Source: an uncultured SAR116 cluster alpha proteobacterium
GTDB lineage: Bacteria > Pseudomonadota > Alphaproteobacteria > Puniceispirillales > Marisalimonadaceae
Direction: 5' to 3'
DNA: 64,000 nt
Assembly: GCA_902528415.1 (NCBI GenBank)
Contig: CABZSR010000005.1
Span: 27,623-91,622, forward strand
The notes under the pieces were generated by a model that saw nothing but the letters and a program-made list of their open reading frames with translations, did no database searches and was not told the DNA's origin. Both the position numbers and the translations under genes were made by a program. This document shows positions 13,636 through 52,492 of this stretch, piece after piece (the stretch's first letter is position 1; every line of letters starts with the position of its first letter).

Positions 13636-14937
13636 CTAGCAATCGGCTCCAGGAAATCCAGCATTAATCCAATCTACAGCTTTGATGCCATTAGGTGGGT
13701 TCACACAACTTGCTTTATATCTGACAATATCAGTAACAGTTATATTTCCATCCTTATCCTTTGCAGTTGTTCCAATAGCATGGGGTTGAATGGCCTGATG
13801 ACCGTCACCAAGTTTCATTTGCACAAGACCACCTGGAGAGTCAAACTCAAGACCTTTAAAAGCTGCAGCTATTTCATCTTTATTAGGTTTTTTACCACCA
13901 TTTTTTTCCATAGCTTTTTCAATTGCCATTTTCAGACCCATCAATCCTTGAACCATTCTATATGGAGGTTGTGCAGGGAAAACTCCATATTCATCCATAT
14001 ATGATTTATAAAACCATTTATTTAACGCGGTGTCAGGAGCCATCATTCCATATTGTCCTCTTGCGCCCAGAATAACACCTTCAGGATACTTGTTACCAAG
14101 ACCAGGCATTACATGGTCACCAGCTGAAAAAACAACCTGTGTTCTTTTAAACAATCCTCTAGGCTTGGCTTGCAAAATGAAAGATTGAAGGTCTCCACCC
14201 CATAGTGAACTATGAACAACTTTTGCTTTTGAATTCATTAAAGCAGAAATTTCAGTTCCATATTGACCTGAGAAAATTTTTGGAAATAATTCATTTTTAA
14301 TTTCAGAACTAGGAGATAGTTTCTTTACTGAAACACTAAAATCTTTCCAACTATCTTTTCCCCAAGCATAATTTTGATTAATGCCAGCTATAGAACTTAT
14401 ATCGTGGCCTTTTTCTATCAAATATTTTGCTATGGCAATATTATCCATAGCTGCGTGAGCTGCAGTTCTAAAAACATATTTGTATGATGCGTCTTCAAAA
14501 ACTCTAGGAGTTCCACAATCATAAAGTACAGTCAAAGCCTTGAGTTCGTCTGCTACTGACGGAATAGCCATACAATCCCCAGAAGATACATAACCTAATA
14601 CAGCATCAACTTTATCTCTTTGAACTAAATTTCTAAATTCTTGAACCTGCTTTGTTGCTCCACCAGACTCATCAATGGGTATCGCAGTAATTTTCATACC
14701 ACCAAAACCTTTTTTATTATATGGTGCTGGCACTTTTCCTTCATTTAATAATTTAATAAATAACTTACCACCATTCCACGCAGGAACTCCGAATGGCTCA
14801 GCAGCCGGCCCTGATAAAAATGTTACTACACCAAGTTTAAAACCTTTATGTCCGTCAGCGTTACTAATGCCCACAAAAGTTAATAAAGAAATCAAAATTG
14901 ATGACATTAAAATTAGACATTGTCTAAAAAAATTCAT
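13636..14937 (-). CDS. ABC transporter substrate-binding protein (Leu/Ile/Val-type periplasmic binding protein)
   Basis: Signal peptide MNFFRQCLILMSSILISLLTFVGISNADG; LGVVTFLSGPAAEPFGVPAWNGGKL; adjacent to livHMGF; strong GGAGG SD. Confidence 0.9.
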   Translation of the reverse strand: MNFFRQCLILMSSILISLLTFVGISNADGHKGFKLGVVTFLSGPAAEPFGVPAWNGGKLFIKLLNEGKVPAPYNKKGFGGMKITAIPIDESGGATKQVQEFRNLVQRDKVDAVLGYVSSGDCMAIPSVADELKALTVLYDCGTPRVFEDASYKYVFRTAAHAAMDNIAIAKYLIEKGHDISSIAGINQNYAWGKDSWKDFSVSVKKLSPSSEIKNELFPKIFSGQYGTEISALMNSKAKVVHSSLWGGDLQSFILQAKPRGLFKRTQVVFSAGDHVMPGLGNKYPEGVILGARGQYGMMAPDTALNKWFYKSYMDEYGVFPAQPPYRMVQGLMGLKMAIEKAMEKNGGKKPNKDEIAAAFKGLEFDSPGGLVQMKLGDGHQAIQPHAIGTTAKDKDGNITVTDIVRYKASCVNPPNGIKAVDWINAGFPGADC

Positions 14938-35844: not shown

Positions 35845-36800
35845 ACTTCTTCTAGTCTATCGGTGGCTGGAGGGGGTGTTGGGCTAATATTAGATATTAA
35901 ATTATAAGTTTCTTGATCTAAAGAAATCTCCACTGAGTCTAATGATGGTTTTAATTGTTTTAAGTTTCTTGCACTTATAATAGGTGCAGTTATAGCATCA
36001 TTATATGATACCCAAGCAACAGCTAAAGCAATTGGGTCATAATCTAAGTCGTTAGCTAAATTGACAAGTGAATTAGCTGCGTCGTACATCCAATTTTGAC
36101 CATATCTTTTTTTATATTTAGAATTATCGTGCAGTCTACCCAAACTATTTTTATTAGATGTATCCACTGAACTATATTTTCCAGTGAGAAGTCCACCACC
36201 CAATGGACTATAGCTAATAACGCCAATATTTTCAGTTTTTGACATAGGAAGGATTTCGACCTCAGCTTGTCTTTTAACTATGTTGTACATGGGCTGAAGA
36301 ATATCAATTGACGGGAACCCATTTTTTTCCGCAATCAACTGCGCTTTCATTACTTGCCAAGCAGAAAAATTTGAAGCACCTAATTGAAAAAATTTTCCTT
36401 CTTCTCTAAGTTTTTGAAGTGTTTCAAATGTTTCTTCTAATGGGACGTCGTCATCCCAATGATGTAAGAAAAAAACATCTACATAGTCTTGCTTTAATCT
36501 TTTAAGACTTTCTTCTAACTGTGATCTTATATTTTTACCACTAGACCCACCAACTGATCCAGCCTTAGTAATTAAAATTATCTTATCCCTTTCTTCTTTA
36601 ATTAAATTACCAAGAATTAATTCAGATTTACCTCCCGTGTATACAAAAGCAGTATCAAAGAAGTTTATACCTCTATCACGACAAGCTTCATACATTTCTT
36701 GACTATCTTTTTCGTTTGCTCCGTCACCAAATTGCATAGTACCAAAACATAACGATGAATTTTTTAAATTATTAGGCCCAAACTCTCTTATCATTTTCAT
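35841..36800 (-). CDS. aldo/keto reductase
   Basis: NFFDTAFVYTGGKSELILGNLI, YVDVFFLHHWDDDVPLEETFETLQKLREEGK, VISYSPLGGGLLTGKY. Confidence 0.92.
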   Translation of the reverse strand: MKMIREFGPNNLKNSSLCFGTMQFGDGANEKDSQEMYEACRDRGINFFDTAFVYTGGKSELILGNLIKEERDKIILITKAGSVGGSSGKNIRSQLEESLKRLKQDYVDVFFLHHWDDDVPLEETFETLQKLREEGKFFQLGASNFSAWQVMKAQLIAEKNGFPSIDILQPMYNIVKRQAEVEILPMSKTENIGVISYSPLGGGLLTGKYSSVDTSNKNSLGRLHDNSKYKKRYGQNWMYDAANSLVNLANDLDYDPIALAVAWVSYNDAITAPIISARNLKQLKPSLDSVEISLDQETYNLISNISPTPPPATDRLEEV

Positions 36801-36813
36801 ATAACAAAACCTC

Positions 36814-37587
36814 TTAATTATTTTTAAAATTTTTCATCCAAGTAAGACCCGCTTCAGTAGTTGTCTTTGGTTTATACTCAGCTCCAACAATACTTTTATA
36901 TCCAGCTTTGTATATTTCGGGAATAATATAACTAAAGTCTAATTCCCCACTATCTGGTTCTGCTCGATCCTGAACTGATGCTATTTGGACATGACCAATA
37001 AAAGGTAAGTGATCTTTAAATCTTTTCACTACATTGCCTTGATTTATTTGAACATGGTAAAAATCAAACATAATTTTAACAGTATCTGATCCTACTAGTT
37101 CACAAATTTCTCTTGCTTGCTCAACTTTAGTTAAAAAGTATCCTGGATTATCTTTTAAATTTAAAGGTTCAATAACTAATCCTATACCACTGTCTTTTAG
37201 TAAGTCCTTAGCAAATTTTAAATTATCAATAAAAGTTACGAGAGATTTTGTTGATAAATCCGTCACACCAGCCATAGCGTGAATATTTTTTGATTTAATA
37301 ACTTTAGCATACTCAAAAGCTTGAATTATAGCATCTCTTGCTTCAGATATTCTTGTTGGAACTGCAAGTAAACCATTGTCACCTTCCTGAATATTTCCCT
37401 TTAAAGTATTTATACCCATAACTGGTAAATTAACTTCATCTAAAGCTTTTTTTATATCTTTTGAGTCAAATTGATATGGAAATTGAAATTCAACAGCATC
37501 AAATCCATATTCTTTTGATTTATAAATAGCATCTATCTGAGAAAATTCATTCCATAAAAGACCTAAATTTGCGGAAAATTTATACAT
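36814..37587 (-). CDS. otnI: hydroxypyruvate isomerase-family/2-oxo-tetronate isomerase
   Basis: SANLGLLWNE, FDAVEFQFPYQFD, IEPLNLKDNPGYFLTKVEQA, IMFDFYHVQINQGNVVKRFKDHLPFIGHVQIASVQDRAEPDSGELDF; adjacent to otnC-like gene. Confidence 0.85.
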   Translation of the reverse strand: MYKFSANLGLLWNEFSQIDAIYKSKEYGFDAVEFQFPYQFDSKDIKKALDEVNLPVMGINTLKGNIQEGDNGLLAVPTRISEARDAIIQAFEYAKVIKSKNIHAMAGVTDLSTKSLVTFIDNLKFAKDLLKDSGIGLVIEPLNLKDNPGYFLTKVEQAREICELVGSDTVKIMFDFYHVQINQGNVVKRFKDHLPFIGHVQIASVQDRAEPDSGELDFSYIIPEIYKAGYKSIVGAEYKPKTTTEAGLTWMKNFKNN

Positions 37588-37591
37588 AATA

Positions 37592-38239
37592 TTAATCCCA
37601 TTCTATATTAAATTTCTTTATAACTGAGTTTATTTGAGATTCATCTAATGCTTTTGCGTCTGCACCTTTTAAGATTAGAGCTAATTTTGCAGTAGCCTCT
37701 AATTCTTCAATAGCATTAACTGAAGATTCTAAGTTTTTGCCTGAGACAACCGGTCCATGATTAGCTAACAAAACAGCTGACCTTTTACCAACAAGACCTT
37801 TGATAGCGTCACCCATAGCAGGGTCACCAGGCACAAAGAAGGGAAGTAACTTAACTTTCCCTAACAGCATTATTGAGTATGGTGTGTAAGAGGGTAATAC
37901 ATTATCTTCGTCTATTCCGGGTAACATAGATAGAGCTACAGAATGAGTAGAATGAAGATGAACTACAGCACCAGATTTCATACCTCTTGTTTCATAAAAA
38001 GCTTTGTGAAGGGGTAACTCCTTAGTTGGTGATAAAGATCCTATGAATTGACCAGACTTTGTCACTTTAACTATTTCATTTGGTTCAAGCCTTCCAAATG
38101 AAGATCCTGAAGGTGTAACTAGTATATCATCATTATCTAAACGAACTGAAATATTACCTGTTGATCCATGAGTAATACCCCTATCAAACATTGAAGACGC
38201 TAAAGTACAGATTTGTTCTCTTAATTTATTTTCGTTCAT
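37592..38239 (-). CDS. otnC: class II aldolase/3-oxo-tetronate 4-phosphate decarboxylase-like
   Basis: MFDRGITHGSTGNISVRLDNDDILVTPSGSSFGRLEPNEIVKV, AVVHLHSTHSVALSML. Confidence 0.82.
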   Translation of the reverse strand: MNENKLREQICTLASSMFDRGITHGSTGNISVRLDNDDILVTPSGSSFGRLEPNEIVKVTKSGQFIGSLSPTKELPLHKAFYETRGMKSGAVVHLHSTHSVALSMLPGIDEDNVLPSYTPYSIMLLGKVKLLPFFVPGDPAMGDAIKGLVGKRSAVLLANHGPVVSGKNLESSVNAIEELEATAKLALILKGADAKALDESQINSVIKKFNIEWD

Positions 38240-38270
38240 TTATAAAATATAACCTATATATATATTAATT

Positions 38271-38747
38271 TCAGTAACCAAATAATTGGTATAAAATACC
38301 TATAGACAAGCCAATTACCACATGACTGCCAATAGCTAAGGAACAAGATAAAAAAGGTGATGGTGTTTTTAATCCCAGAAAACCTTTACCCAAAACAGGC
38401 ATGAAGAAAAACCAAGGAACAACAACACTTAGCAAACCAAAAACAAATCCATTAAAAATTGAAGCATTACAAATATTATATTTTAATAACATAAAGAAGA
38501 ATATTGAATACATAATCGCAACAGTGTAATGAACAACCCATCCAATTCTTAATTCATTTTTTATTGGGGGCACTTCTTCGATTATTGGATTATATATTTT
38601 TGCTTTTGATATTAATAATATATACCATCTTCCAACAATTGCCCAGTCTGATGGATTTATATCATACATAATTTTTAATAATCTCTGCCAAATATCCATC
38701 GCAAGACATGAAATAATCCCAATAATTACAATGTTCAATATTTCCAT
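38271..38747 (-). CDS. DUF2938-like integral membrane protein
   Basis: GIISCLAMDIWQRLLKIMYDINPSDWAIVGRWYILL...WVVHYTVAIMYSIFFFMLL. Confidence 0.65.
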   Translation of the reverse strand: MEILNIVIIGIISCLAMDIWQRLLKIMYDINPSDWAIVGRWYILLISKAKIYNPIIEEVPPIKNELRIGWVVHYTVAIMYSIFFFMLLKYNICNASIFNGFVFGLLSVVVPWFFFMPVLGKGFLGLKTPSPFLSCSLAIGSHVVIGLSIGILYQLFGY

Positions 38748-38890
38748 TAAAAGCCCTTTTTATATTTAAATTTTTATAGCAATGAACTCTTTAACAATAT
38801 AAAATAATATAAGAGATCTTTAAAATATATCTATTGTATTTTATTTTTTTGATGAAATTTGAAACTATAAAAACTAGAGGAGAGAGATTT

Positions 38891-39625
38891 ATGGCTAATT
38901 TTAATGGACAAACTGCAGTAATTACTGGGGGTGCACAAGGTATTGGTTTAGCGACTGCAAAGAGTTTTATTAACGATGGCTGTGAAGTTATGATTTGGGA
39001 TATAGATGAGAAAATGGGTGTGGAGGCAGCAAAAGAGCTAAATTGTCATTTTTTAAAAGTTGATCAAACTAATAACAACTTAGTCGAAGAAGTTACAGAA
39101 AAAACTCTTAAACAAATAAATAAAATTGATATTCTAGTTTGTAGCGCAGGTATTGCTGGACCAACTTATTCAACTTGGGATTATCCTGTTGAAGAATGGT
39201 CAAGAGTATTTGACGTAAATGTAAATGGTGTATTTTACTGTAATAAGCATGTTGTAAGATCAATGCGCGAAAGAAATTATGGTAGAATTATCAATATAGC
39301 CTCAATTGCAGGGAAAGAAGGTAATCCTAATGCTCCTGCATATTCCGCATCTAAAGCAGCTGTAATAGGTTTAACAAAATCTCTTGGTAAAGAAACAGCA
39401 GATAAAGACATCGCTGTTAATTGTATAACACCAGCTACTGCTAAAACGAGAATTCTTGATCAAGTATCACAGGAATTTATTGATTATATGATTTCAAAAA
39501 TTCCAAGAAATAGATTTGTTACTGTTGAAGAAGTTGCATCTCTTATTACCTTTCTAGCGAGTAAAGATAATAGTTTCACTACGGCTGGTGTCTTTGATAT
39601 TTCAGGAGGCAGAGCTACTTATTAA
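38891..39625 (+). CDS. SDR-family oxidoreductase (FabG-like)
   Basis: GQTAVITGGAQGIGLATAKSFINDG, SAGIAGPTYSTWDYPVEEW, YSASKAAVIGLTKSLGKE; ATG 38891 with AGGAGAGAG SD preferred. Confidence 0.9.
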   Translation: MANFNGQTAVITGGAQGIGLATAKSFINDGCEVMIWDIDEKMGVEAAKELNCHFLKVDQTNNNLVEEVTEKTLKQINKIDILVCSAGIAGPTYSTWDYPVEEWSRVFDVNVNGVFYCNKHVVRSMRERNYGRIINIASIAGKEGNPNAPAYSASKAAVIGLTKSLGKETADKDIAVNCITPATAKTRILDQVSQEFIDYMISKIPRNRFVTVEEVASLITFLASKDNSFTTAGVFDISGGRATY

Positions 39626-39627
39626 TT

Positions 39628-39760
39628 GGTGAGGATTTTTAGGAGATCCTCTGCACCTTAACTCAAAAACTAATAATCGGGGGAGGAACTTATTAGTTAG
39701 AATTAGTACAATTAAACGGGGGAGTTTTATTGAACATGTTCAATGTTTGATTCTTTTTCG
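39628..39760 (+). ncRNA. candidate structured RNA (three stem-loops with GGA/CGGGGGAG loops) or structured 3' UTR of the SDR gene
   Basis: Stems GAGGAT/ATCCTC (39631-36/39646-51), AACTAATAA/TTATTAGTT (39668-76/39690-98), CAATTAAA/TTTTATTG (39709-16/39725-32); identical loop octamer CGGGGGAG at 39678 and 39717; then ATTGAACATGTTCAAT and a T-rich tract. Confidence 0.5.
39729..39744. promoter_or_regulatory. perfect 16-bp palindrome (operator or weak terminator stem)
   Basis: attgaacatgttcaat is self-reverse-complementary; followed by gtttgattcttttt. Confidence 0.55.
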
Positions 39761-39866
39761 AAGTTTGTCTTGTTCTAATTAATAATAAATTTTTAGAGCC
39801 TTAAATTTGTTATATATTTGTGCAAAAAAACTTACTTTTATAATTTTTGTTTAATAATTAATCATT

Positions 39867-40469
39867 TTAAACTGCTGTTTTAAGTTCCATGACTGCAGAA
39901 AGTATTACAACTGCGAATAAAGAAAGTCCCATTCCCCTATTTACCCAAACCTGCTTGTTAGATGCTAATGACCATCTTTTTAGACTTATCCCTAACCACA
40001 GCCAAAATAAATGTATAGGTATCCAAATTGAATTTACTATAATAAATTTAGTTAGAATCTCAACATTATAAGAAGTCATTCCAAGTGATAGCACTACAAA
40101 TAAATGTCCTTGGACTACATAAGCCTTTGGATTGACAAATTGTAAAAAAATTCCTTCGTATAATTTTGGAGCTTTAAAACTTTGTTTAAAACCAGTTTTA
40201 TTTTCAGATGTAGCTATACGCCAAGATAAAAAAGATAAGTAGGATAGTGATAAAAATAAAAAAGTTAGTTCAACTCCTTCAATTTCAAACAGAAACTGTT
40301 TAAAGCCCAGCACGACTAGTAATGCTACCCCATTAGTTCCAAAAAACAACCCAATGAGATACATCATTCCAACTTTCCATCCAAAACCAGCTCCAACACC
40401 AGCTAAAGAAAGTACGCCTGGACCAGGAGTAACCATCATTAAAAAACTAATAATTATGTAAGCAATCAT
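39867..40469 (-). CDS. LysE/RhtB family translocator
   Basis: MVTPGPGVLSLAGVGAGFGWKVGMMYLIGLFFGTNGV and FVNPKAYVVQGHLFVVLSLG. Confidence 0.88.
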   Translation of the reverse strand: MIAYIIISFLMMVTPGPGVLSLAGVGAGFGWKVGMMYLIGLFFGTNGVALLVVLGFKQFLFEIEGVELTFLFLSLSYLSFLSWRIATSENKTGFKQSFKAPKLYEGIFLQFVNPKAYVVQGHLFVVLSLGMTSYNVEILTKFIIVNSIWIPIHLFWLWLGISLKRWSLASNKQVWVNRGMGLSLFAVVILSAVMELKTAV

Positions 40470-40555
40470 TTGAATCTATAGATAATATCTATACCTTGGA
40501 TAAATGGAATAATTTTTGAAGATATAATTATAATAAGATTTTGATAATCACATTA

Positions 40556-41968
40556 TTACAGAAAAATCTTTCCTGGGTTCATTATTTTTTTTGGATCAAA
40601 AGCATTTTTAACTTTTTTCATAACGTCTACAGCGTTTCCTAATTCCTTCAACATATATTTTCTTTTGCCTTGTCCAATACCATGCTCCCCGGTACATGTA
40701 CCATCCATTCTAATAGCCCTTTCAGATATTCTGATTAAAAAACTATCTAGTTTGTCTAATTCAGTCTTGCTGTTTTTGTCAATTAGTAATGCAACATGAA
40801 AATTTCCATCACCTGCATGACTTACTATTGGACCTATCAATTCGTTCTTTTCCATGTCTTCAATCGTTTCTGTAATACAATCAGACAGTTTGGAAATTGG
40901 CACACAAACGTCTGTTGAATAAATTTCTGCCTCAGGCCTTACTGACCTACATGACCAATATGCATCATGCCTTGCTTTCCATAATTTGTTTCTTTCTTCA
41001 TTATTAGAAGTCCATTCAAAATCGTTACCACCAAAATCTGATGCTATTTCACTAAATAATTCTGATTGCTCTTTTACAGATTTTTCACTGCCATGAAACT
41101 CTAATAGTAATAAAGGCGCTTCAGGAAGGTTTGTCTTAGAATAACTATTAACTGCTTTTACTTGAGCAACATCTAAAAACTCTATCCTTGCTACTGGTAT
41201 TCCAGCTTGTACAGTCATTATAACTGCATCAGTTGCATCCTTAACTGTTGGAAAACTTACTCTACCTCCTGCAATAACTTCTGGGATACCATAAAGCTTT
41301 AGTGTAATTTCTGTAGTTATACCTAATGTCCCCTCTGAACCAACCATTAACCGAGTTAAATCATAACCTGCTGAACTTTTTCTAGCTTTATTTGCTGTTT
41401 TTATTATTTGACCATCAGGAGTAACAACCTCAAGAGCAATTACATTATCTTTCATTGTTCCATAACGCACTGCATTTGTTCCAGAAGCTCGAGTAGCTGT
41501 CATCCCACCAAGTGAAGCATTTGCACCAGGATCAATTGGAAAAAACAATCCAGTATCTCTTAAGTGGGTGTTTAGTTGTTCTCTGGTAACCCCAGGTTGA
41601 ACAACAACTAACAGATCTTCCTGATGTACTGTCAGGATCTTATTCATATTATTCATATCAATAGAAATTCCGCCATAAGGAGCATTAAGATGTCCTTCAA
41701 ATGAAGAGCCAACACCAAAAGGAATTATTGGACATTTAAATTCATTACAAATTTTTACAACTTTTTGAACATCTTCTTTGCTCTCGGCAAAAACAACGCC
41801 ATTGGGTAATTCTGATTCATGAATAGTCATCGTATGAGTATGTTGTTCAAGTATATTTTTACTACTAGAGAATTGTTGCCCAAATTCTTCTTGAATTTTT
41901 TTTATACATAATTTGATGCTCTCTTTATCATAATCCTGGTCAGACCATACAGAAACACTACCATCCAT
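40556..41968 (-). CDS. FAD-linked oxidase, D-lactate/glycolate dehydrogenase (LDHD/GlcD) type, copy A
   Basis: CPIIPFGVGSSFEGHLNAPYGGISIDMNNMNKIL, GLFFPIDPGANASLGGMTATRASGTNAVRYGTM, SHAGDGNFHVALL, TGEHGIGQGKRKYM. Confidence 0.92.
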   Translation of the reverse strand: MDGSVSVWSDQDYDKESIKLCIKKIQEEFGQQFSSSKNILEQHTHTMTIHESELPNGVVFAESKEDVQKVVKICNEFKCPIIPFGVGSSFEGHLNAPYGGISIDMNNMNKILTVHQEDLLVVVQPGVTREQLNTHLRDTGLFFPIDPGANASLGGMTATRASGTNAVRYGTMKDNVIALEVVTPDGQIIKTANKARKSSAGYDLTRLMVGSEGTLGITTEITLKLYGIPEVIAGGRVSFPTVKDATDAVIMTVQAGIPVARIEFLDVAQVKAVNSYSKTNLPEAPLLLLEFHGSEKSVKEQSELFSEIASDFGGNDFEWTSNNEERNKLWKARHDAYWSCRSVRPEAEIYSTDVCVPISKLSDCITETIEDMEKNELIGPIVSHAGDGNFHVALLIDKNSKTELDKLDSFLIRISERAIRMDGTCTGEHGIGQGKRKYMLKELGNAVDVMKKVKNAFDPKKIMNPGKIFL

Positions 41969-41989
41969 TTTAAAAACCTTTTCTATAAT

Positions 41990-43402
41990 TTATAAAATTT
42001 TTCCTGGGTTCATTATACCCTTTGGATCAATTTCTTCTTTTATTAATTTCATGAAATTAACAGCAGGGCCTAATTCATCGACTAAGTATTGTTTTTTACC
42101 CTGCCCTACTCCATGTTCTCCTGTACATGTTCCATCCATACTAATGGCTCTATGAGCTAATCTCTCTAAAAACCCGTTTGCAACATCAACTTCTTTTTGT
42201 ATCTTAGGATCAATCATTAACTGAACATGAAAATTACCATCACCAACATGACCAACAATGGGTCCAAACAAATTATTTTTTTCCATGTCATCTATCGTTT
42301 CAGTAATACATTCCGACAATCTTGATATTGGCACACAAACATCCGTAGCAATATAATCTGCCTCAGGCCTGCAAGCTTTGACAGCGTAATAAACATCATG
42401 CCTAGCCTTCCAAAGTCTATTTCTTTCTTCAATATTTGCATTCCACTCAAAGTTATCACCACCAAAATCTTTGGAAATTTCGTTAAACAACTCGGATTGT
42501 TCTTGCACAGAAGATTTACTTCCATGAAACTCTAATAATAATAATGGTGACTCAGGTAAGTTTAACTTTGAGTAATTATTTACAGCTTTAACCTGCGCAA
42601 TATCTAATAGTTCTATTCTGGCAACTGGAATTCCAGCCTGTATAGTCATAATCACAGCATCCGTTGCATCCTGAACAGACGGAAAAGTACATCTACCAGC
42701 TCCAATTTCTTCAGGAATACCATAAAGTTTAAGTGTAATTTCAGTTATGACACCTAATGTACCTTCGGATCCAACAATTAATCTTGTCAAATCATATCCA
42801 GCAGAACTTTTTCTAGCTCTACTAGCCGTATTTATTATTTCTCCATTTGGCATTACAACTTCTAATGAAATTACGTTATCTTTCATAGTTCCATAACGAA
42901 CGGCGTTGGTTCCAGAGGCTCTTGTCGATGCCATTCCTCCAATTGAGGCATTGGCACCTGGGTCAATAGGGAAAAACAAACCCGTATCTCTAAGGTGTGT
43001 ATTTAGTTGTTCTCTAGTTACACCTGGTTGTACAACAACAGTTGAATCTTCAGGGTGAACTTCAATTATATTATTCAGATTATTCATATCTATGGAGATC
43101 CCACCAAAATTAGCATTTAGATGACCTTCAAGGGAAGAGCCTACTCCAAAAGGTATTATGGGACATCCATGTTCATGGCATATTTTTACTGTTTTTTTTA
43201 CATCCTCTTTGTTGTAGGCAAAAACAACACCATCAGGCAATTCTGGTTTATGAACTGTTGTTGTACTTGTATGTTGTTCACGAACTGATTTAGAAACTGA
43301 GAATTGCTGCCCAAACTCTTTTTTTAATGCTTCTACCGCACTATTTGTGTTGTACTCAAATTTTAAGTAAAAAGAGCTGTTTTTAACATCTAAAATTGTC
43401 AC
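41990..43402 (-). CDS. FAD-linked oxidase, D-lactate/glycolate dehydrogenase (LDHD/GlcD) type, copy B
   Basis: CPIIPFGVGSSLEGHLNANFGGISIDMNNLNNII, DPGANASIGGMASTRASGTNAVRYGTM, GHVGDGNFHVQLM, TGEHGVGQGKKQYL; same length (470 aa) as copy A. Confidence 0.92.
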   Translation of the reverse strand: MTILDVKNSSFYLKFEYNTNSAVEALKKEFGQQFSVSKSVREQHTSTTTVHKPELPDGVVFAYNKEDVKKTVKICHEHGCPIIPFGVGSSLEGHLNANFGGISIDMNNLNNIIEVHPEDSTVVVQPGVTREQLNTHLRDTGLFFPIDPGANASIGGMASTRASGTNAVRYGTMKDNVISLEVVMPNGEIINTASRARKSSAGYDLTRLIVGSEGTLGVITEITLKLYGIPEEIGAGRCTFPSVQDATDAVIMTIQAGIPVARIELLDIAQVKAVNNYSKLNLPESPLLLLEFHGSKSSVQEQSELFNEISKDFGGDNFEWNANIEERNRLWKARHDVYYAVKACRPEADYIATDVCVPISRLSECITETIDDMEKNNLFGPIVGHVGDGNFHVQLMIDPKIQKEVDVANGFLERLAHRAISMDGTCTGEHGVGQGKKQYLVDELGPAVNFMKLIKEEIDPKGIMNPGKIL

Positions 43403-43537
43403 TTATTAACCTCACATATGTTTTTCTTTAATATCGTATGAATATATTTCAAAATAAAGATTGAGTAAATTATTACATTTTAATAAAAATTATATTTGTT
43501 ATAGTTTTGAACTTCTCGTTAGGAAGCTTACAAAAAA

Positions 43538-44473
43538 ATGTATAATAAAGCTATTTTTTTAGGTGAATGCATGATTGAACTCAATGGAGACATTTCTTCA
43601 TTGGAAAATAAAAGTTCAAAAATGCAAATTAATTTTGGAGGCGATACTTATAATTCTGCAATATATTTTTCAAGACTAGCAAATAATAAAACTAATACTT
43701 TCTATTCAACTGTACTCGGAAATGACAGTTTTTCTAGAAAAATGATTTTAAGATTTAAAAATGAAAAAATAAAATGTGATTATGTAAGAACCGATGGAAA
43801 AAATCCTCCTGGTTTATATTCAATAGAAATTAATGAAATAGGTGAAAGAAGTTTTTCTTATTGGAGAGATCAATCACCATCGAAATACATTTTTTTAGGG
43901 TCAAAAGGAAAAAAACTAGCTAAAGAAATAAAAAATGCAGATGTTTTTTATTATACTGGTATTTCTGCCGGCATTCTTGATGCAAAACAAAAAAAGGATT
44001 TGATACATATAGGATCTACTGCAGTTACATGTGGATTTGATTTTAATTATAGGTCCCAATTACATAATGATAAGAAAATGTCACAATTATTATTTAAAAA
44101 AATTAGTGAAAATGTAGATATCAACTTTGTATCTTTTGATGATGTTAAAGAGTTATTTGATATTAAAAATCCATATGAAGTTTTTGAAATATTAAATGAC
44201 AAAAAAAATCTAATTCTTATAAGATATAAGGACTCAATTATTTTTAAAAACAAACAAGAAGTCATAAAAACTGTTAAAGTTCATCATGGAGAGGTGGTTG
44301 ATACAACAGCAGCAGGTGACGCATTCAATGGATCTTTCCTTGCTTTAATAAATAACGATAAAAATATTCCAATAGTAGAAAATATATTAAAGTCCCACTC
44401 TGTTACTAGAGAAGTGATAAAGCATAAAGGCGCTATTATTTCCAATAAAAATATGCCTAACATAAATACTTAA
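43538..44473 (+). CDS. PfkB-family sugar kinase (2-keto-3-deoxygluconate kinase-like)
   Basis: AIFLGECMIEL, INFGGDTYNSAIYFSRL, VDTTAAGDAFNGSFLALI. Confidence 0.88.
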   Translation: MYNKAIFLGECMIELNGDISSLENKSSKMQINFGGDTYNSAIYFSRLANNKTNTFYSTVLGNDSFSRKMILRFKNEKIKCDYVRTDGKNPPGLYSIEINEIGERSFSYWRDQSPSKYIFLGSKGKKLAKEIKNADVFYYTGISAGILDAKQKKDLIHIGSTAVTCGFDFNYRSQLHNDKKMSQLLFKKISENVDINFVSFDDVKELFDIKNPYEVFEILNDKKNLILIRYKDSIIFKNKQEVIKTVKVHHGEVVDTTAAGDAFNGSFLALINNDKNIPIVENILKSHSVTREVIKHKGAIISNKNMPNINT

Positions 44474-44489
44474 ATAAGGAATAAATAAA

Positions 44490-45425
44490 ATGGACAAAAA
44501 CTTACTTATAATGACAGAAATGCCTGAATATTTTGTAAGTCTGGCAGATAAAAACTTCAACACTTATAAATTGTGGTTAAACAAAAATGAAGATGATTAC
44601 TTATCTGAAATTAAAACAGAAATTGATGCAATTGCCGTTATGGGAGGTTATAAAATTACACCAGAGTTAATGAAAAGTATGCCAAATTTAAAAATAATTG
44701 CCTGTTATGGTGTAGGTTATGACGCAATAGATATAAATTATGCAAAAAGCCTAGGTATAAAAGTCACTAACACCCCTGAAGTACTTAATGACGAAGTGGC
44801 AGACACAGCTATTGCACTAATGCTATGTGTCTATAAAAAAATTGTAGATGCAGATAGTTTTGCAAGAAACAACTCTTGGCTTAATGGAGATTTTCCATTA
44901 ACAAAAAAATTTAGTAGTACTAAATTAGGTATTGTTGGAATGGGAAGAATTGGAAAAGCAATAGCAAAAAGAGCCGAAGCATTTGACTGTGAAATTTTTT
45001 ATCATTCTAGAAACAAAAAAGATGTGAAATATAAATATATCAGTGACTTAAATCAGTTAGCTCAAGAAGTAGATACCTTATGTGTAATTACACCAGGCGG
45101 AAAAGAAACAGAGAAATTAATTAATAAAAAAATTCTTTGTAGCCTTGGCAAAAATGGCGTAATTATTAATGTAGCGAGGGGGTCAGTAATTGATCAAGAC
45201 GAACTGATTCATTGCCTGGAAAACAATACTATTTTAGCTGCAGGATTAGATGTCTACACTAATGAGCCTAATATCCCAGAAAAATTAATAAATCTTAAAA
45301 ATACTGTTTTATTACCTCATATAGCATCTGGAACAGTTGAGACTAGAAATGCTATGGGACAATTAGTATTTGATAATATAAAAAATTATTTTGAAAATAA
45401 ATCTCTTATATCAGAAGTAGTATAA
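44490..45425 (+). CDS. D-isomer-specific 2-hydroxyacid dehydrogenase (glyoxylate/hydroxypyruvate reductase-like)
   Basis: IACYGVGYDAIDINYAKSLGIKVTNTPEVLNDEVADTAIALML, KLGIVGMGRIGKAIAKR, VINVARGSVIDQDEL. Confidence 0.9.
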   Translation: MDKNLLIMTEMPEYFVSLADKNFNTYKLWLNKNEDDYLSEIKTEIDAIAVMGGYKITPELMKSMPNLKIIACYGVGYDAIDINYAKSLGIKVTNTPEVLNDEVADTAIALMLCVYKKIVDADSFARNNSWLNGDFPLTKKFSSTKLGIVGMGRIGKAIAKRAEAFDCEIFYHSRNKKDVKYKYISDLNQLAQEVDTLCVITPGGKETEKLINKKILCSLGKNGVIINVARGSVIDQDELIHCLENNTILAAGLDVYTNEPNIPEKLINLKNTVLLPHIASGTVETRNAMGQLVFDNIKNYFENKSLISEVV

Positions 45426-45432
45426 AAATATT

Positions 45433-46329
45433 CTAATTTTGGGGTAATTTTATTCCAGCATTTCTAGCATATATTTTTGCAACTGCAGCATCATCTTCTT
45501 GTCCTAAACCTGAGCCTGCAGCGGAAATAAACTGTTGTAACGCTGCAGCAGTCAAGGGAGCAGAAAAATTTGAATTTTTAGCAATATCTAAAACTATACC
45601 TAGATCCTTTGGCCAAATATTGATCGAAGATTTTGGGGAATAATCATTATCTATAATATGAGGCGTTCTGTTCTCGAGCATCCAAGAGGTCCCAGCACAT
45701 TTCGAGATAACTTCTAAAAACCTTTTTGGATCAATTCCTTGTGTTATACCAAATGTAATAGCTTCAGCCATTGCAGCAATATGAACACCCGCAAGCATTT
45801 GATTAACTGCTTTCATAGCAGAACCTGATCCGACATGTTCCCCAAATTCGAAGACTGTTTCTGAAGTGCAGTCTAAAATAGGCTTAGCAACCTCAAAAGC
45901 TTTTGGGCTACCTGAAATCATATAGGATAACTTACCCTCAGCTGATTTTTTTGATCCTCCAGAAATGGGCGCGTCTAAATATAAAAGTCCTTTATCATTG
46001 CAGGAAGATGCCATTTCTTTAGCAAAATCTGGAGCTACTGTTGTACAAACCATGATAAGACTATTTTTCTTTAATTTTTCTGAAATACCATTTTGGCCAA
46101 AGATAATTTCCCTTGTTTGTTTTTCATTTAAAACAACTATAATTACTGCTTGTAAATCATTAAATGGAATATTTTTATCATAGCCACCTTCTTCGATAAG
46201 TCTTTTCTGTTGCTTAAGGTTTTTATCTTGTCCATAAACACTATACCCTGCACGTATCAGTGACTGAGCTATTCCAAAGCCCATTGATCCAAGACCAACA
46301 ACTAAGATATTTTTAATTTTAATATCCAT
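45433..46329 (-). CDS. ltnD: beta-hydroxyacid dehydrogenase (L-threonate dehydrogenase/HIBADH-like)
   Basis: VVGLGSMGFGIAQSLIRAGYSVYGQD, DAPISGGSKKSAEGKLSYMISG, GSGSAMKAVNQMLAGVHIAAMAEA, GTSWMLENR. Confidence 0.8.
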   Translation of the reverse strand: MDIKIKNILVVGLGSMGFGIAQSLIRAGYSVYGQDKNLKQQKRLIEEGGYDKNIPFNDLQAVIIVVLNEKQTREIIFGQNGISEKLKKNSLIMVCTTVAPDFAKEMASSCNDKGLLYLDAPISGGSKKSAEGKLSYMISGSPKAFEVAKPILDCTSETVFEFGEHVGSGSAMKAVNQMLAGVHIAAMAEAITFGITQGIDPKRFLEVISKCAGTSWMLENRTPHIIDNDYSPKSSINIWPKDLGIVLDIAKNSNFSAPLTAAALQQFISAAGSGLGQEDDAAVAKIYARNAGIKLPQN

Positions 46330-46337
46330 AATATTGT

Positions 46338-48119
46338 TTAGTGATTATCCCTCGGTAAAGTTTTTCTTACCTTTTGATATTTAACGGCGTTTTCAAGAAC
46401 AGCTCCGTCAGATAATTCTCCAACAAATTTTCTTTGAATTTCTTGCCATGGCGTTTGACTTTCAGGATATGGTGGAACACCGTCTTTTTTTCTTAATTCT
46501 ATTTCTTCGTCACTAACTAACATGTTTGCTGTACATTTATTTAAATCTATTACTACCGTATCACCAGTTCTTAACCAGGCCAATCCACCTCCAGTTGCAC
46601 TCTCTGGAGAAGCATTTAGAATTGAAGGACTTCCTGATGTTCCAGATTGTCTTCCATCTCCAATACAAGGTAATTCAGTTATACCTTTTTTTATTAGTTC
46701 ATCAGATGGCTGCATATTTACCACTTCAGCAGACCCAGGCCAACCTACAGGTCCAGCACCTCTAATAACTAGAATTGAATTTTCATTCATATCTAAACTT
46801 TTATCATTTAATCTGTCGTGATAATCCTCAGAACCTTCAAAAACAATAACTTTACCTTCTAGTATCCCTTCTTTACCAGGGCGGTTTAAAAATTTATCTT
46901 TAAAGCTTTTTGAAATAACAGATGTTTTCATTATTGCTGCATTAAAAAGGTTACCTTTTAAAACAATAAAGCCTGCTTTTTGTTTCATCGGATTTTTAAA
47001 AGGGGTAATAACCTTTTCATTTTTAATTTTAATACCCTTTAAATTTTCAGACAATTTTTTACCCGTCACCGTCATTACGTCTCCATGAAGCTTGTCATAA
47101 CTTAAAAGCTCTGACATTATGGCCGCCGTTCCTCCTGCTCTATGATAACTTTCACACAAGTACTCACCTGCCGGCTGTATATTTGCCATTAAAGGTATAT
47201 CGTAACCAACTTTTTGCCATGCGTCAGTTTCTAATTCCACTCCTATATGTCTTGCAATTGCAGTAATGTGAATTTGAGCATTAGTAGAGCCTCCAATAGC
47301 TGAGTTTACAGTAATAGCATTTTCAAAAGCCTCTCTGGTCATAACTTGAGAGGGCGATAAATCGTCTTTAACCATATCAACAATTCTAAGACCAGTTTTG
47401 TATGCCATTTGCCCTCGTTCTCTATATGGTGCAGGAATATTTGCATTGCCTGTTAAACTCATTCCTAGTGCTTCAGCCAGAGAATTCATTGTTGATGCAG
47501 TTCCCATTGTATTACAATGTCCATCTGATGGAGCTGAGCTTGTTACAATATCTATAAATTGTTCATAGTCTATCCTACCTGCTGCTAGTTCAACTCTACT
47601 ATCCCAAACAGCTGTACCAGAACCCGCAAGTTTGCCATTATGCCATCCGTCTAACATTGGTCCACCATTAAGAACAATCGCAGGAAGATCAACTGTTGCT
47701 GCCGCCATTAAGCAAGAAGGAGTTGTTTTATCACAACCTGTCATTAACACCACACCATCTAAAGGATAACCGTGAAGAATTTCAACTAATCCTAAATATG
47801 CTAAGTTTCTATCAACTGCTGCAGTTGGTCTCTTAAGAGTTTCTTGAATGGGATGGACGGGAAATTCAAAGGCTATTCCTCCAGCACTTCTTATTCCCTC
47901 TCTAACTCTTTCCGCTAATTTTATATGTACTCTATTACAAGGAGATATATCTGAACCTGTTTGTGCAATGCCAATGATAGGTTTGCCTGATCTCAACTCT
48001 TCTGGCGTAAGTCCAAAGTTCATTGATCTTTCAAGATATAAAGCAGTCATTCCAGGATTAGTCGGATTATCAAACCATTGTTGACTTCGATATTTTGGAT
48101 TGAAATTTTTATCTGACAT
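46338..48119 (-). CDS. IlvD/Edd-family sugar-acid dehydratase (arabonate/xylonate/gluconate-type)
   Basis: [107 protein letters not shown]; start moved to ATG 48119. Confidence 0.92.
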
Positions 48120-48308
48120 AATTTTTCTCCCAAGTAAAATTTTAAAATTTAACAAATAATAAAAGTTTATAAATTTAATTTAAAATAGTGTGAATATTTA
48201 CATTATTTATTTTAAATTTTAAGAATATTGTTAATATCATACTTGATTTTAAAAAAATCGAAAAGATAATTTCAGTTTTTATTTTTTATAATGTGGGAGG
48301 TTATAAAA

Positions 48309-49832
48309 ATGTCTAATAGTGAGAAGTTAACTGTTAAACTTAATAATAATGATAATGTTGCTACTGCTTTAAGGGAGATACGCGTAGGTGAAACCACACA
48401 GAACCTTGAAAGCATTAACAAAATCCCAAAAGGCCATAAAATAGCTCTTAGAAAAATTAATAAAGGTGAGAAAATAATCAAATATGATCAACTTATTGGT
48501 GTTGCTAGCAAAGAAATTCTAGCTGGAGACCATGTTCATGTTGAAAATACTGATTTCAAATCAACTGATCATGATTACGAGTTTTCAACATCTATTAAGT
48601 TACCAAATATGATTGAACCTGAAAAAAGACCTACTTTTAGAGGTTATAAAAGACAAAACGGCAAAGTTGGAACCAGAAATTACATAGGTATCCTTACATC
48701 AGTTAATTGCTCTGCGACGGCAGCAAAAAATATTGCAGAAGTTTTTACAGAGGCTAAATTACGTTTATATCCAAATGTTGATGGGGTTGTTTCATTTACT
48801 CATGGTACTGGTTGTGGAATGGCAGATTCTGGCGATGGCTTTGATGCTCTTCAAAGAGTTCTTTTAGGCTATATCCAACATCCTAATTTAGCCGGAATTT
48901 TGTTAATTGGCTTAGGATGTGAGGCAAACCAAATAAAGTTTCTTTTAGATGCTTTTAATTTACATGAAAATCCATTTTTTAAAACAATGACACTGCAGGA
49001 TATGGGTGGACTTAGGAAAACAATTAAAGCAGGAATTAAATGCATAGATGACATGCTTCCAGAGGTAAATTCTATAAAACGAACAGAGCAATCAGTAGAA
49101 CATCTTAGCGTTGCGCTTCAATGTGGAGGGTCTGATGCTTGGTCAGGAATAACCTCAAATCCATCACTTGGTCATGCCGCAGACTTATTAGTTAAAAATG
49201 GTGGCACAGCTATTTTGGCTGAAACACCTGAGATTTATGGCGCTGAACACATGTTAACTAGAAGGGCAATCTCTCCAGAAGTTGGAAAAAAACTTGTTGA
49301 CAGAATTTTATGGTGGGAAGATTACGTTACTAGAAATAAAGGAAGTTTAAATAACAATCCATCACCTGGTAATAAGGCTGGTGGTTTGACCACTATATTA
49401 GAAAAGTCACTGGGAGCAGCTGCTAAAGGGGGAACAACTCCATTAAATGATGTTCTTTTGTACGCCCAACAAGCTGAAAAAAAAGGTTTTTTATTTATGG
49501 ATAGTCCTGGGTATGATCCTGCTTCTGTTACTGGGCAAATAGCAAGTGGTTGTAATGTTGTTACTTTTACAACTGGAAGAGGTTCTTGCTTTGGTTGCAA
49601 ACCTTCACCATCTATAAAAATAGCTACAAATACAGAGATGTATAATAATATGGTTGAAGATATGGATGTTAACGCAGGAAAAGTAATAACTGACAATAAA
49701 AGTATTGAAGACGTTGGTCAGGAAATTTTTGATTTAATAGTCAGGGTAGCTTCAGGTGAAAAATCAAAGTCTGAGTATCAAGGTCTTGGAGATTTAGAGT
49801 TTGTACCTTGGCAAATTGGAGCAACAATGTGA
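48309..49832 (+). CDS. UxaA-family dehydratase (altronate/galactarate/fuconate type)
   Basis: N-terminal SAF domain then RGYKRQNGKVGTRNYIGILTSVNCSATAAKNIAE, FTHGTGCGMADSGDGF, VALQCGGSDAWSGITSNPSLGHAADLLV; GGGAGG SD before ATG 48309. Confidence 0.92.
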   Translation: MSNSEKLTVKLNNNDNVATALREIRVGETTQNLESINKIPKGHKIALRKINKGEKIIKYDQLIGVASKEILAGDHVHVENTDFKSTDHDYEFSTSIKLPNMIEPEKRPTFRGYKRQNGKVGTRNYIGILTSVNCSATAAKNIAEVFTEAKLRLYPNVDGVVSFTHGTGCGMADSGDGFDALQRVLLGYIQHPNLAGILLIGLGCEANQIKFLLDAFNLHENPFFKTMTLQDMGGLRKTIKAGIKCIDDMLPEVNSIKRTEQSVEHLSVALQCGGSDAWSGITSNPSLGHAADLLVKNGGTAILAETPEIYGAEHMLTRRAISPEVGKKLVDRILWWEDYVTRNKGSLNNNPSPGNKAGGLTTILEKSLGAAAKGGTTPLNDVLLYAQQAEKKGFLFMDSPGYDPASVTGQIASGCNVVTFTTGRGSCFGCKPSPSIKIATNTEMYNNMVEDMDVNAGKVITDNKSIEDVGQEIFDLIVRVASGEKSKSEYQGLGDLEFVPWQIGATM

Positions 49833-49841
49833 GGAATTTTT

Positions 49842-50576
49842 ATGATTGATTTAAAAGGCAAAGTTGCTCTCTTAACTGCTTCTGGTCAGGGCATTGGGAA
49901 AGCTACTGCTAGAGCATTCTCTGAGGCTGGTGCGTACGTGATTGCAACGGATATCAATCGTGAAACTTTATCTTCTTTAGATAAGATTGTAGATGAAACC
50001 CATATACTTGATGTAACAGACAATAATGCAATTAAAAACTTAGTTGGGTCAATCAAAGAACCTGACATACTATTTAACTGTGCTGGAATTGTCCATAATG
50101 GAACAATTTTAGAATCTACTGATAATGATTGGGATTTTGCTTTTAAACTTAATGGCAAAGCAATGTATCACATGATTAAAGAAGTAATACCGATAATGAT
50201 TAAAAAAGGAGGAGGATCGATTGTTAACATAGCTTCTGTAGCTTCATCTCTAAAAGGTATTCCAAACCGTTTTATTTATAGTGCATCAAAAGCAACTGTT
50301 TTAGGTTTAACTAAGTCTGTTGCTGCTGACTATATTACCCAAGGCATAAGGTGCAATGCCATATGTCCTGGTACAATAAATAGTCCATCACTAGAGCAAA
50401 GATTATCCGATATGGGTGATTATGAAAAAGCAAGGAAGGAATTTGTTGCCCGACAACCAATGGGAAGAATTGGAGATGCAGAGGAAGTTGCAAGCCTTGC
50501 AGTTTATTTAGCAAGCGATGCTTCAGCTTTTACAACTGGTCAATTTCACATTATAGATGGTGGAATATGTACTTAA
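49842..50576 (+). CDS. SDR, 2-keto-3-deoxy-L-fuconate dehydrogenase/DHRS6(BDH2)-like
   Basis: GKVALLTASGQGIGKATARAFSEAGAYVIATDI, LDVTDNNAI, FNCAGIVHNGTILESTDNDWDFAFKLN, SVASSLKGIPNRFIYSASKATVLGLTKSVAADYITQGIRCNAICPGTINSPSLEQR. Confidence 0.88.
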   Translation: MIDLKGKVALLTASGQGIGKATARAFSEAGAYVIATDINRETLSSLDKIVDETHILDVTDNNAIKNLVGSIKEPDILFNCAGIVHNGTILESTDNDWDFAFKLNGKAMYHMIKEVIPIMIKKGGGSIVNIASVASSLKGIPNRFIYSASKATVLGLTKSVAADYITQGIRCNAICPGTINSPSLEQRLSDMGDYEKARKEFVARQPMGRIGDAEEVASLAVYLASDASAFTTGQFHIIDGGICT

Positions 50577-50627
50577 GAAAATGTCATATTAAGAAAAAGT
50601 ATTAATTGTAAAAAGGAGGAGAATAAA

Positions 50628-51470
50628 ATGAAATTGTTACGTCATGGAGCTTTTGGAAAAGAAAAACCAGGTATTCTTGATCAAAATGGTTCTATAAGGG
50701 ATTTGTCTGAGCATTTACCAGATATTAATGGAGAAACTATAAGTGAAAATAGTTTAAAAAAAATTTCTTCAATAGATTTATCTTCTCTACCAATTGTATC
50801 TGATGATACGAGACTAGGTGCATGTGTTGGTAATGTTGGCAAGTTTCTATGTATTGGATTAAATTATTCTGATCATGCAGCTGAAAGCGGCATGGCTGTT
50901 CCTAGTGAGCCTATCCTTTTTTCAAAAGCTACTTCTGCAATTGTCGGTCCAAATGATAATATTGAAATACCAAGAAATTCGGTTGAGACTGATTGGGAAG
51001 TAGAACTTGGCATAATTATTGGAAAAAAAGCCAAATATATAAATGAGAATGATGCGGATGATTATATTACTGGCTACTGCCTAGTAAATGACGTCTCTGA
51101 AAGAGAGTTTCAGTTAAAAAAAGAAGGTCAGTGGACTAAAGGAAAGTCATGCGATACTTTTGGACCTACAGGACCTTACTTAGTTACAAAAGATGAGATA
51201 GCTGACGTACAAAAATTAAAAATGTATTTGGATGTTAATGGACAGAGAATGCAAGATGGTTCTACAAATACCATGATATTTTCAGCTAGATATATTGTAT
51301 ATTACTTATCTCAATTTATGAGCCTTAATCCCGGAGATATTATTGCTACTGGAACTCCTCCTGGGGTAGGAGGTGGAATGAAACCACCAGTATTTTTAAA
51401 AGCTGGGGATAAAATGAAGCTTGGAATTGAAGGTCTTGGTGAGCAAAACCAAGTTTGTATTCAAGGATAA
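50628..51470 (+). CDS. fumarylacetoacetate hydrolase-family protein (2,4-diketo-3-deoxy-L-fuconate hydrolase-like)
   Basis: CIGLNYSDHAAESGMAVPSEPILFSKATSAIVGPNDNIEIP, DWEVELGIIIGKKAKYI, GDIIATGTPPGVGGGMKPP; AAGGAGGAG SD. Confidence 0.9.
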   Translation: MKLLRHGAFGKEKPGILDQNGSIRDLSEHLPDINGETISENSLKKISSIDLSSLPIVSDDTRLGACVGNVGKFLCIGLNYSDHAAESGMAVPSEPILFSKATSAIVGPNDNIEIPRNSVETDWEVELGIIIGKKAKYINENDADDYITGYCLVNDVSEREFQLKKEGQWTKGKSCDTFGPTGPYLVTKDEIADVQKLKMYLDVNGQRMQDGSTNTMIFSARYIVYYLSQFMSLNPGDIIATGTPPGVGGGMKPPVFLKAGDKMKLGIEGLGEQNQVCIQG

Positions 51471-51479
51471 ATATAGTTA

Positions 51480-52492
51480 ATGAATAGATTAAGCAATAGA
51501 ACTAAAGCTGCAATTATTTATGAAAAAGGGACACCAGACGTTTTTAAATGGGAAGAAGTTGAAGTTCCAAATCCAACTAACAAAGAAGTACGTTTAAAAA
51601 ATACTGCTATAGGTGTGAATTATATTGACACCTATCACAAACGCGGTATGCCGCATCCCTGGCCAGTTCCAGAGCTGCCAATTGTTTTAGGTATTGAAGG
51701 AGTGAGTGTCGTAGAAGAATTAGGTGCTGATGTAAACGAGTTTTCAATCGGTGACAGAGTTGCCTACGCTCTTCCTCCACATGGTGCATACAGCGAAGAA
51801 AGAGTGTATCCCGTTGACAAATTAATAAAAGTGCCTGATTCATTATCTCATGTCTCTGATCAGGATCTTGCTGCATTAATGTTAAAAGGATTAACAGCTC
51901 AATTTCTTCTTAAAAGAACATATTCCTTAAATCACGAGATGTTATTTTAGTTCACGCTGCAGCCGGTGGAATGGGTCTTATATTATGTCAATGGGCTAAG
52001 TATCTTGGTGCTACGGTTGTTGGAACTGTTAGTTCAGAACAGAAAGCAGAACAAGCAAAAAAAGCTGGAGCTGAACATGTTGTTGTTCATTCTGAAGGAG
52101 ATTTTGTTAAAAAGATTCTAGAAGTTACAAATGGTGAAGGATGCCCAGTTGTATATGAATCAATAGGAAAGGATACCTTTAGAAGATCCATGGACTGCCT
52201 GCAACCCATGGGAATGCTTGCTGCATATGGTCATGCCTCAGGTGCTCCAGACCCAGTTGATGTTGTGGAATTGGGTATGAAAGGTTCACTTTTTCTAACC
52301 AGACCAGCTATAATGCATTATATGGCTAAAAGAGAGGATTTAATATCGAGTGCGAATGATCTATTCAATGTAATTGAAAAAGGTGTCTTAAAATCAAATG
52401 TCAACCATACATACCCTTTGAGTGAGGTTGGTAAAGCTCATCGTGCAATAGAGAATAGAAAAACAACTGGAGCCACAGTATTAATTCCCTAA
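51480..52492 (+). pseudogene. NADPH:quinone oxidoreductase (Qor family) split by a one-base frameshift near 51936
   Basis: ORF 51480..51950 ends ...KRTYSLNHEMLF*; the shifted frame reads DVILVHAAAGGMGLILCQWAKYLG into ORF 51971..52492; restoring one G (cacGAG to cacGGAG) gives NHGDVILVHAAAGGMG. Confidence 0.88.

Follow-up and report, generated by a model that had tools for sequence, protein, structure and literature searches.

Between two convergent genes of a 64,000-nucleotide (nt) stretch of DNA from an uncultured SAR116 cluster alphaproteobacterium (contig CABZSR010000005.1; hereafter the window) lies an element of three hairpins, a structured RNA that is conserved in one SAR116 lineage and falls outside any Rfam family. 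We consider it probable that the element encodes a trans-acting small RNA (sRNA) of the minus strand, with anti-Shine-Dalgarno (anti-SD) loops that would block ribosome-binding sites in an Hfq-free manner. From the comparisons below we infer its strand, the use of its promoter, the ends of the transcript and the repression of translation. The element and its hairpins are arranged as follows:

Positions 39628 to 39735, minus strand: conserved structured element, the proposed anti-SD sRNA, with its 5' end near 39735-39738, delineated by synteny, an RNA model and covariation.
Positions 39706 to 39735, minus strand: hairpin C, sRNA hairpin 1 (5'-most; the third hairpin of a preliminary description of this DNA), with the anti-SD loop CUCCCCCG.
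Positions 39668 to 39698, minus strand: hairpin B, sRNA hairpin 2, with the anti-SD loop UUCCUCCCCCG, which is UUCCUCCCU in most relatives.
Positions 39628 to 39657, minus strand: hairpin A, sRNA hairpin 3 (3'-most; the first hairpin of that description), GGUgcaGAGGAU[CUCCUAAAA]AUCCUCACC, with the anti-SD loop CUCCU.

Direct reading of the sequence confirmed the three hairpins, the duplicated octamer CGGGGGAG and the stop codon of an SDR gene at 39625, all of which the preliminary description had reported; the hairpins and the duplicated octamer are real. On the plus strand, the stem of hairpin A pairs GAGGAT (39631-39636) with ATCCTC (39646-39651) around the loop TTTTAGGAG, and an outer GGT/ACC pairing (39628-39630 with 39655-39657) extends it. 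Hairpin B pairs AACTAATAA (39668-39676) with TTATTAGTT (39690-39698) around tCGGGGGAGGAac, while hairpin C pairs CAATTAAA (39709-39716) with TTTTATTG (39725-39732), flanked by an outer GT/AC, around the octamer itself (39717-39724). The octamer occurs three times in the 1.72 Mb genome assembly, and two of these occurrences are loops B and C. A palindrome and T-rich tract described alongside the hairpins are present in the window (39730-39760) and are not conserved beyond the window's own sub-clade. Folding energy by itself is unremarkable (z = -1.23 for the plus strand, -2.25 for the minus strand), so the case must rest on comparison, and the evidence against chance is conservation in relatives together with compensatory change.

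The element is confined to a narrow lineage and a single genomic place. Of 61 genomes covered by a blastn-type search, 28 contain it, a count that includes the window's own genome, and all 28 belong to one genus. A covariance model built from 18 sequences, with the window's own sub-clade left out, recovers that sub-clade and 30 of the 40 genus genomes overall, and also matches two sister-genus genomes (E about 1e-6) that hold a diverged form in the same place. In every one of these relatives, the element is flanked by the stop of the SDR gene (plus strand) and that of a LysE gene (minus strand), and the stop-to-stop spacing is nearly constant. Nine of the 10 genus genomes lacking a match also lack a detectable LysE gene, and in the remaining one 25 bases separate LysE from the end of a contig; the element thus follows its locus. 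Public records containing the hairpin-A sequence come from SAR116-cluster alphaproteobacteria, mostly single-cell genomes, and a search of 387 class-wide genomes under strict filters returned no wider homologues outside the window's own genome. A repeated or mobile element was considered and rejected, given a single copy per genome and no match in viral contigs. The two copies in one genome (G029), placed at corresponding distances on different contigs, are probably an assembly duplicate.

Inspection of the aligned relatives reveals conserved loops, with two of the three stems varying in sequence while pairing is kept. For the middle stem (hairpin B), the window's clade has AACUAAUAA/UUAUUAGUU, G061 has AGCUAAUAAU/AUUAUUAGCU and the sister genus has AGACAAUAAU/AUUAUUGUCU. 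Similarly, the stem of hairpin C is swapped beneath an unchanged loop, to UUGUAG/CUACAA in G028 and to GAUUA/UAAUC in the sister genus. In the model-fitted alignment, 13 pairs are changed on both sides versus 4.6 +- 1.6 in shuffles, and removal of two poorly aligned sister-genus rows gives 12 versus 3.2 +- 1.3 with none of 2000 shuffles as high, where both counts are to be read with an alignment fitted to the structure and shuffles that leave relatedness in. The GAGGAU/AUCCUC stem of hairpin A (GAGGAT/ATCCTC in the DNA) is invariant; because it never varies, it is uninformative on pairing by itself. Compensatory changes and loop conservation, the check that the preliminary description had proposed, are therefore both found, the former in two of three stems, and its suggestion of a conserved structured RNA is borne out by synteny, compensatory change and conserved loops.

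These patterns also bear on whether the hairpins might be a bidirectional terminator or spacer between convergent genes, lacking any trans function. The convergent gene pair and the near-symmetric AT stems fit such a role. Nonetheless, terminators need neither three hairpins with near-invariant SD or anti-SD loops nor an invariant GAGGAT/ATCCTC stem, two of the three stems are less conserved than the loops, and no terminator-like site was found in 39200-39900. We regard this explanation as very unlikely.

Which strand is read can be addressed through wobble pairs. Each G-U pair becomes an A-C mismatch when the opposite strand is read, so G-U pairs discriminate between strands. Under the minus-strand reading, 16 paired positions carry G-U and five carry A-C (p = 0.013 by a sign test that takes positions as units and leaves relatedness and model fitting uncorrected). 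In a plain MAFFT alignment, changes in L009, L014, L016, L028 and L030 pair only as minus-strand G-U. The outer GGU/ACC of hairpin A likewise varies to G-U pairs in L013, L015, L020 and L027, which again pair on the minus strand only. Taken from sequence comparison, these changes suggest that the minus strand fits better than the plus strand.

Read on the minus strand, the loops are of the CUCCCCC, UUCCUCC and CUCCU types across the genus, with small variants. The 16S rRNA 3' end of the window's genome is the usual CCUCCUUUC (also given as TGGATCACCTCCTTTC) and CACCTCCTTTC is present. With this end present, CCUCC loops are true mimics of the anti-SD sequence and could pair with ribosome-binding sites. 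The likeness to the loops of cuckoo and alpha-r14 RNAs that had been pointed out for the minus strand is upheld as a loop type. A search with the Pfam Hfq model (PF17209) found no hfq in any of the 40 genus genomes (G000-G063 set). Across the order, all three other families have the gene; the 66 hfq-positive genomes include none from the window's family (f1), consistent with an apparent family-level loss. With hfq undetected throughout the genus, any such RNA would need to work independently of Hfq.

In the mechanism that we propose, a dedicated sigma-70-type promoter between LysE and SDR would drive an sRNA of roughly 110 nt on the minus strand, beginning at 39735 and reading towards 39628. 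The RNA would fold into three hairpins, each exposing an anti-SD loop (CUCCCCC, UUCCUCC and CUCCU), and each loop would pair with the Shine-Dalgarno (SD) region of target mRNAs such that ribosome binding is blocked, with no involvement of Hfq. The loops are probably partly redundant, as experiments have demonstrated for Sinorhizobium meliloti NfeR1. A transcript running past 39628 would be antisense to the 3' end of SDR. Two upstream sites bear on how such an RNA might be initiated:

Positions 39743 to 39771, minus strand: promoter-like motif, degenerate in the window (AAGACA-17-AAACAT) and clear in most relatives (xTGACT-17-TAtAAA).
Positions 39808 to 39824, minus strand: dyad TGC-N11-(G/A)CA, a possible and speculative regulator site, kept in most genus members, for example as TGCTCAAATTTTTGGCA.

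In most relatives a conserved GACT and TA..A, at fixed spacing, precede hairpin C on the minus strand, and this placement puts the predicted start at the foot of the first sRNA hairpin. The dyad lies about 75-90 nt upstream of that start. For NfeR1, activation comes from a LysR-type regulator acting at -72 to -57 (PMC10746234), and by analogy a regulator site at the dyad is conceivable.

Targets were sought through the octamer and through SD complementarity. As a genome-wide target or repeat signal, CGGGGGAG was rejected: it is not enriched, controls score equal or higher, and its other copies lie in unrelated places. The third copy in the window's genome (L001, G000:C2:53433) is the probable ribosome-binding site of a dehydrogenase that we take, from its sequence, to be of the Ldh2 type, and 11 nt of this site are complementary to hairpin C. 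AACGGGGGAGU, the one strong complementarity seen, precedes this gene in G000 and G035 (L135, G035:C13) only, and with the site in just two genomes the gene was rejected as a conserved target. Ranking of targets within the window returned SD matches of an ordinary kind, among them one for a periplasmic binding protein (13636-14937), and these are not evidence.

Several points weigh against a minus-strand sRNA. The alignment behind the wobble count was fitted to the minus-strand model, and one change (L025) favors the plus strand. Alignment folding energies separate neither strand from the other. A consensus scan of the window calls no promoter at the motif site, and both the window's own sub-clade and the sister genus have a weak promoter. 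Neither strand has a U-tract or intrinsic terminator in 39200-39900 that would account for the 3' end, and no conserved target was found. Furthermore, on the plus strand of the sister genus a run of T (T7) follows hairpin B, as in a terminator of SDR; no other finding speaks as strongly for a plus-strand role in that genus.

The L025 change, the T7 tail and a plus-strand folding energy as good as that of the minus strand would each suit a 3' untranslated region (UTR) element of the SDR mRNA, an alternative that we judge unlikely. Such an element would serve 3'-end stabilization or termination or yield a 3'-UTR-derived sRNA, its G-rich loops binding protein or acting as SD-like decoys, and its start would accord with the few nt that separate the element from the SDR stop in nearly all relatives. 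Set against this are the wobble asymmetry favoring the minus strand, the lack of conserved U-tracts in the genus, and the conserved promoter-like motif, which points in the opposite direction 10-45 nt beyond the last plus-strand hairpin.

A second plus-strand interpretation stems from the GGA present in all three loops on that strand only, which the preliminary description had connected with RNAs that sequester CsrA/RsmA. Repeated GGA hairpin loops do recall CsrB/RsmZ-type RNAs if the plus strand is read. However, a PF02599 search that detected its positive controls found csrA in none of the 40 genus genomes, and with csrA not found the interpretation fails. The conserved loop context of the plus strand consists of G-runs that resemble an SD, and the wobbles favor the opposite strand from the one that a CsrB/RsmZ-type RNA would need here. 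A CsrA/RsmA-sequestering function is close to refuted.

Returning to the minus-strand anti-SD sRNA, its closest parallel in layout is the alpha-r14 family, whose members have three hairpins with an anti-SD motif in each loop and freely changing stems; the founder, NfeR1, is 123 nt long, Hfq-independent and blocks translation initiation via three redundant motifs (PMC10746234). Shared with this family are a length of about 110-123 nt, three hairpins with an unpaired anti-SD motif, variable stems, and, as proposed here, a sigma-70-type promoter with a conserved upstream motif (PMC10746234). That hfq is undetected in the genus is consistent with an Hfq-free action like that of NfeR1; of the translational block itself, SD complementarity is the part seen here. 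In contrast to NfeR1, whose loops are all CCUCCUCCC, the element has three differing loops, none of them CCUCCUCCC, and its 3'-most hairpin is near-invariant and lacks a U-tract. No known Rfam family matched, permissive thresholds included, and none on the minus strand at E up to 10, in the Rfam 15 library, for which the presence of an alpha-r14 model is unconfirmed. Given the unequal loops and no Rfam match, the alpha-r14 layout is matched with homology undemonstrated.

Cuckoo RNAs are hairpins with CU-rich anti-SD-like loops, and the Cuckoo/CcsR1-4 RNAs of Rhodobacter sphaeroides share with the element both this loop type and an alphaproteobacterial host. An RpoH promoter drives transcription of the CcsR RNAs together with a DUF1127 gene, and their 3' end is a Rho-independent terminator (PMC10253847). 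Here, the neighbors are instead SDR and LysE, the promoter motif is sigma-70-like, and a terminator-like site is missing from 39200-39900. The single DUF1127 match in the genome lies on contig C2, whereas the window is on C5; with neither an adjacent DUF1127 gene nor a terminator, a cuckoo/CcsR locus was rejected. The likeness to alpha-r14 and cuckoo/CcsR is at most an analogy in working. AbcR1/2 (alpha-r15) use anti-SD seeds to silence transporter and metabolic mRNAs in alphaproteobacteria, and differ in that the present element has no Rfam match.

The genes on either side of the element are the following:

Positions 38891 to 39625, plus strand: SDR dehydrogenase, the convergent neighbor (Pfam PF13561).
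Positions 39867 to 40469, minus strand: LysE-type exporter, the upstream neighbor (Pfam PF01810).

Just past the LysE stop, at about 39850-39866 on the minus strand, most relatives share a conserved near-palindrome, TGATyAAATATTAATCA, which could be a terminator stem or a protein site. More broadly, the element is surrounded by a dense cluster of sugar-acid-type catabolism (36800-51500) that includes a class II aldolase, a xylose-isomerase-like protein, an FAD-linked oxidase, a pfkB kinase, a 2-hydroxyacid dehydrogenase, an IlvD/EDD dehydratase, a galactarate/altronate dehydratase and an FAA hydrolase.

SAR116 has been described as one of the heterotrophic bacterial groups that are most abundant in the surface ocean (PMC8547437), and no described SAR116 small RNA was found in the literature searched. 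A broader proposal, which we put forward tentatively and hold to be possible though doubtful, is that the element founds a new anti-SD sRNA family confined to one Hfq-less SAR116 family, in which three unequal loops and the invariant 3' hairpin would divide targets by SD type. Such RNAs would stay together with the neighboring SDR/LysE/FAD-oxidase catabolic locus and might regulate it. Should the anti-SD sRNA reading of the element hold, multi-loop sRNAs of this kind would reach beyond rhizobia and Rhodobacter to marine SAR116, a lineage in which hfq is undetected. This would raise the question of whether such loops evolved more than once, and would provide a natural setting for asking how base-pairing sRNAs work without Hfq.
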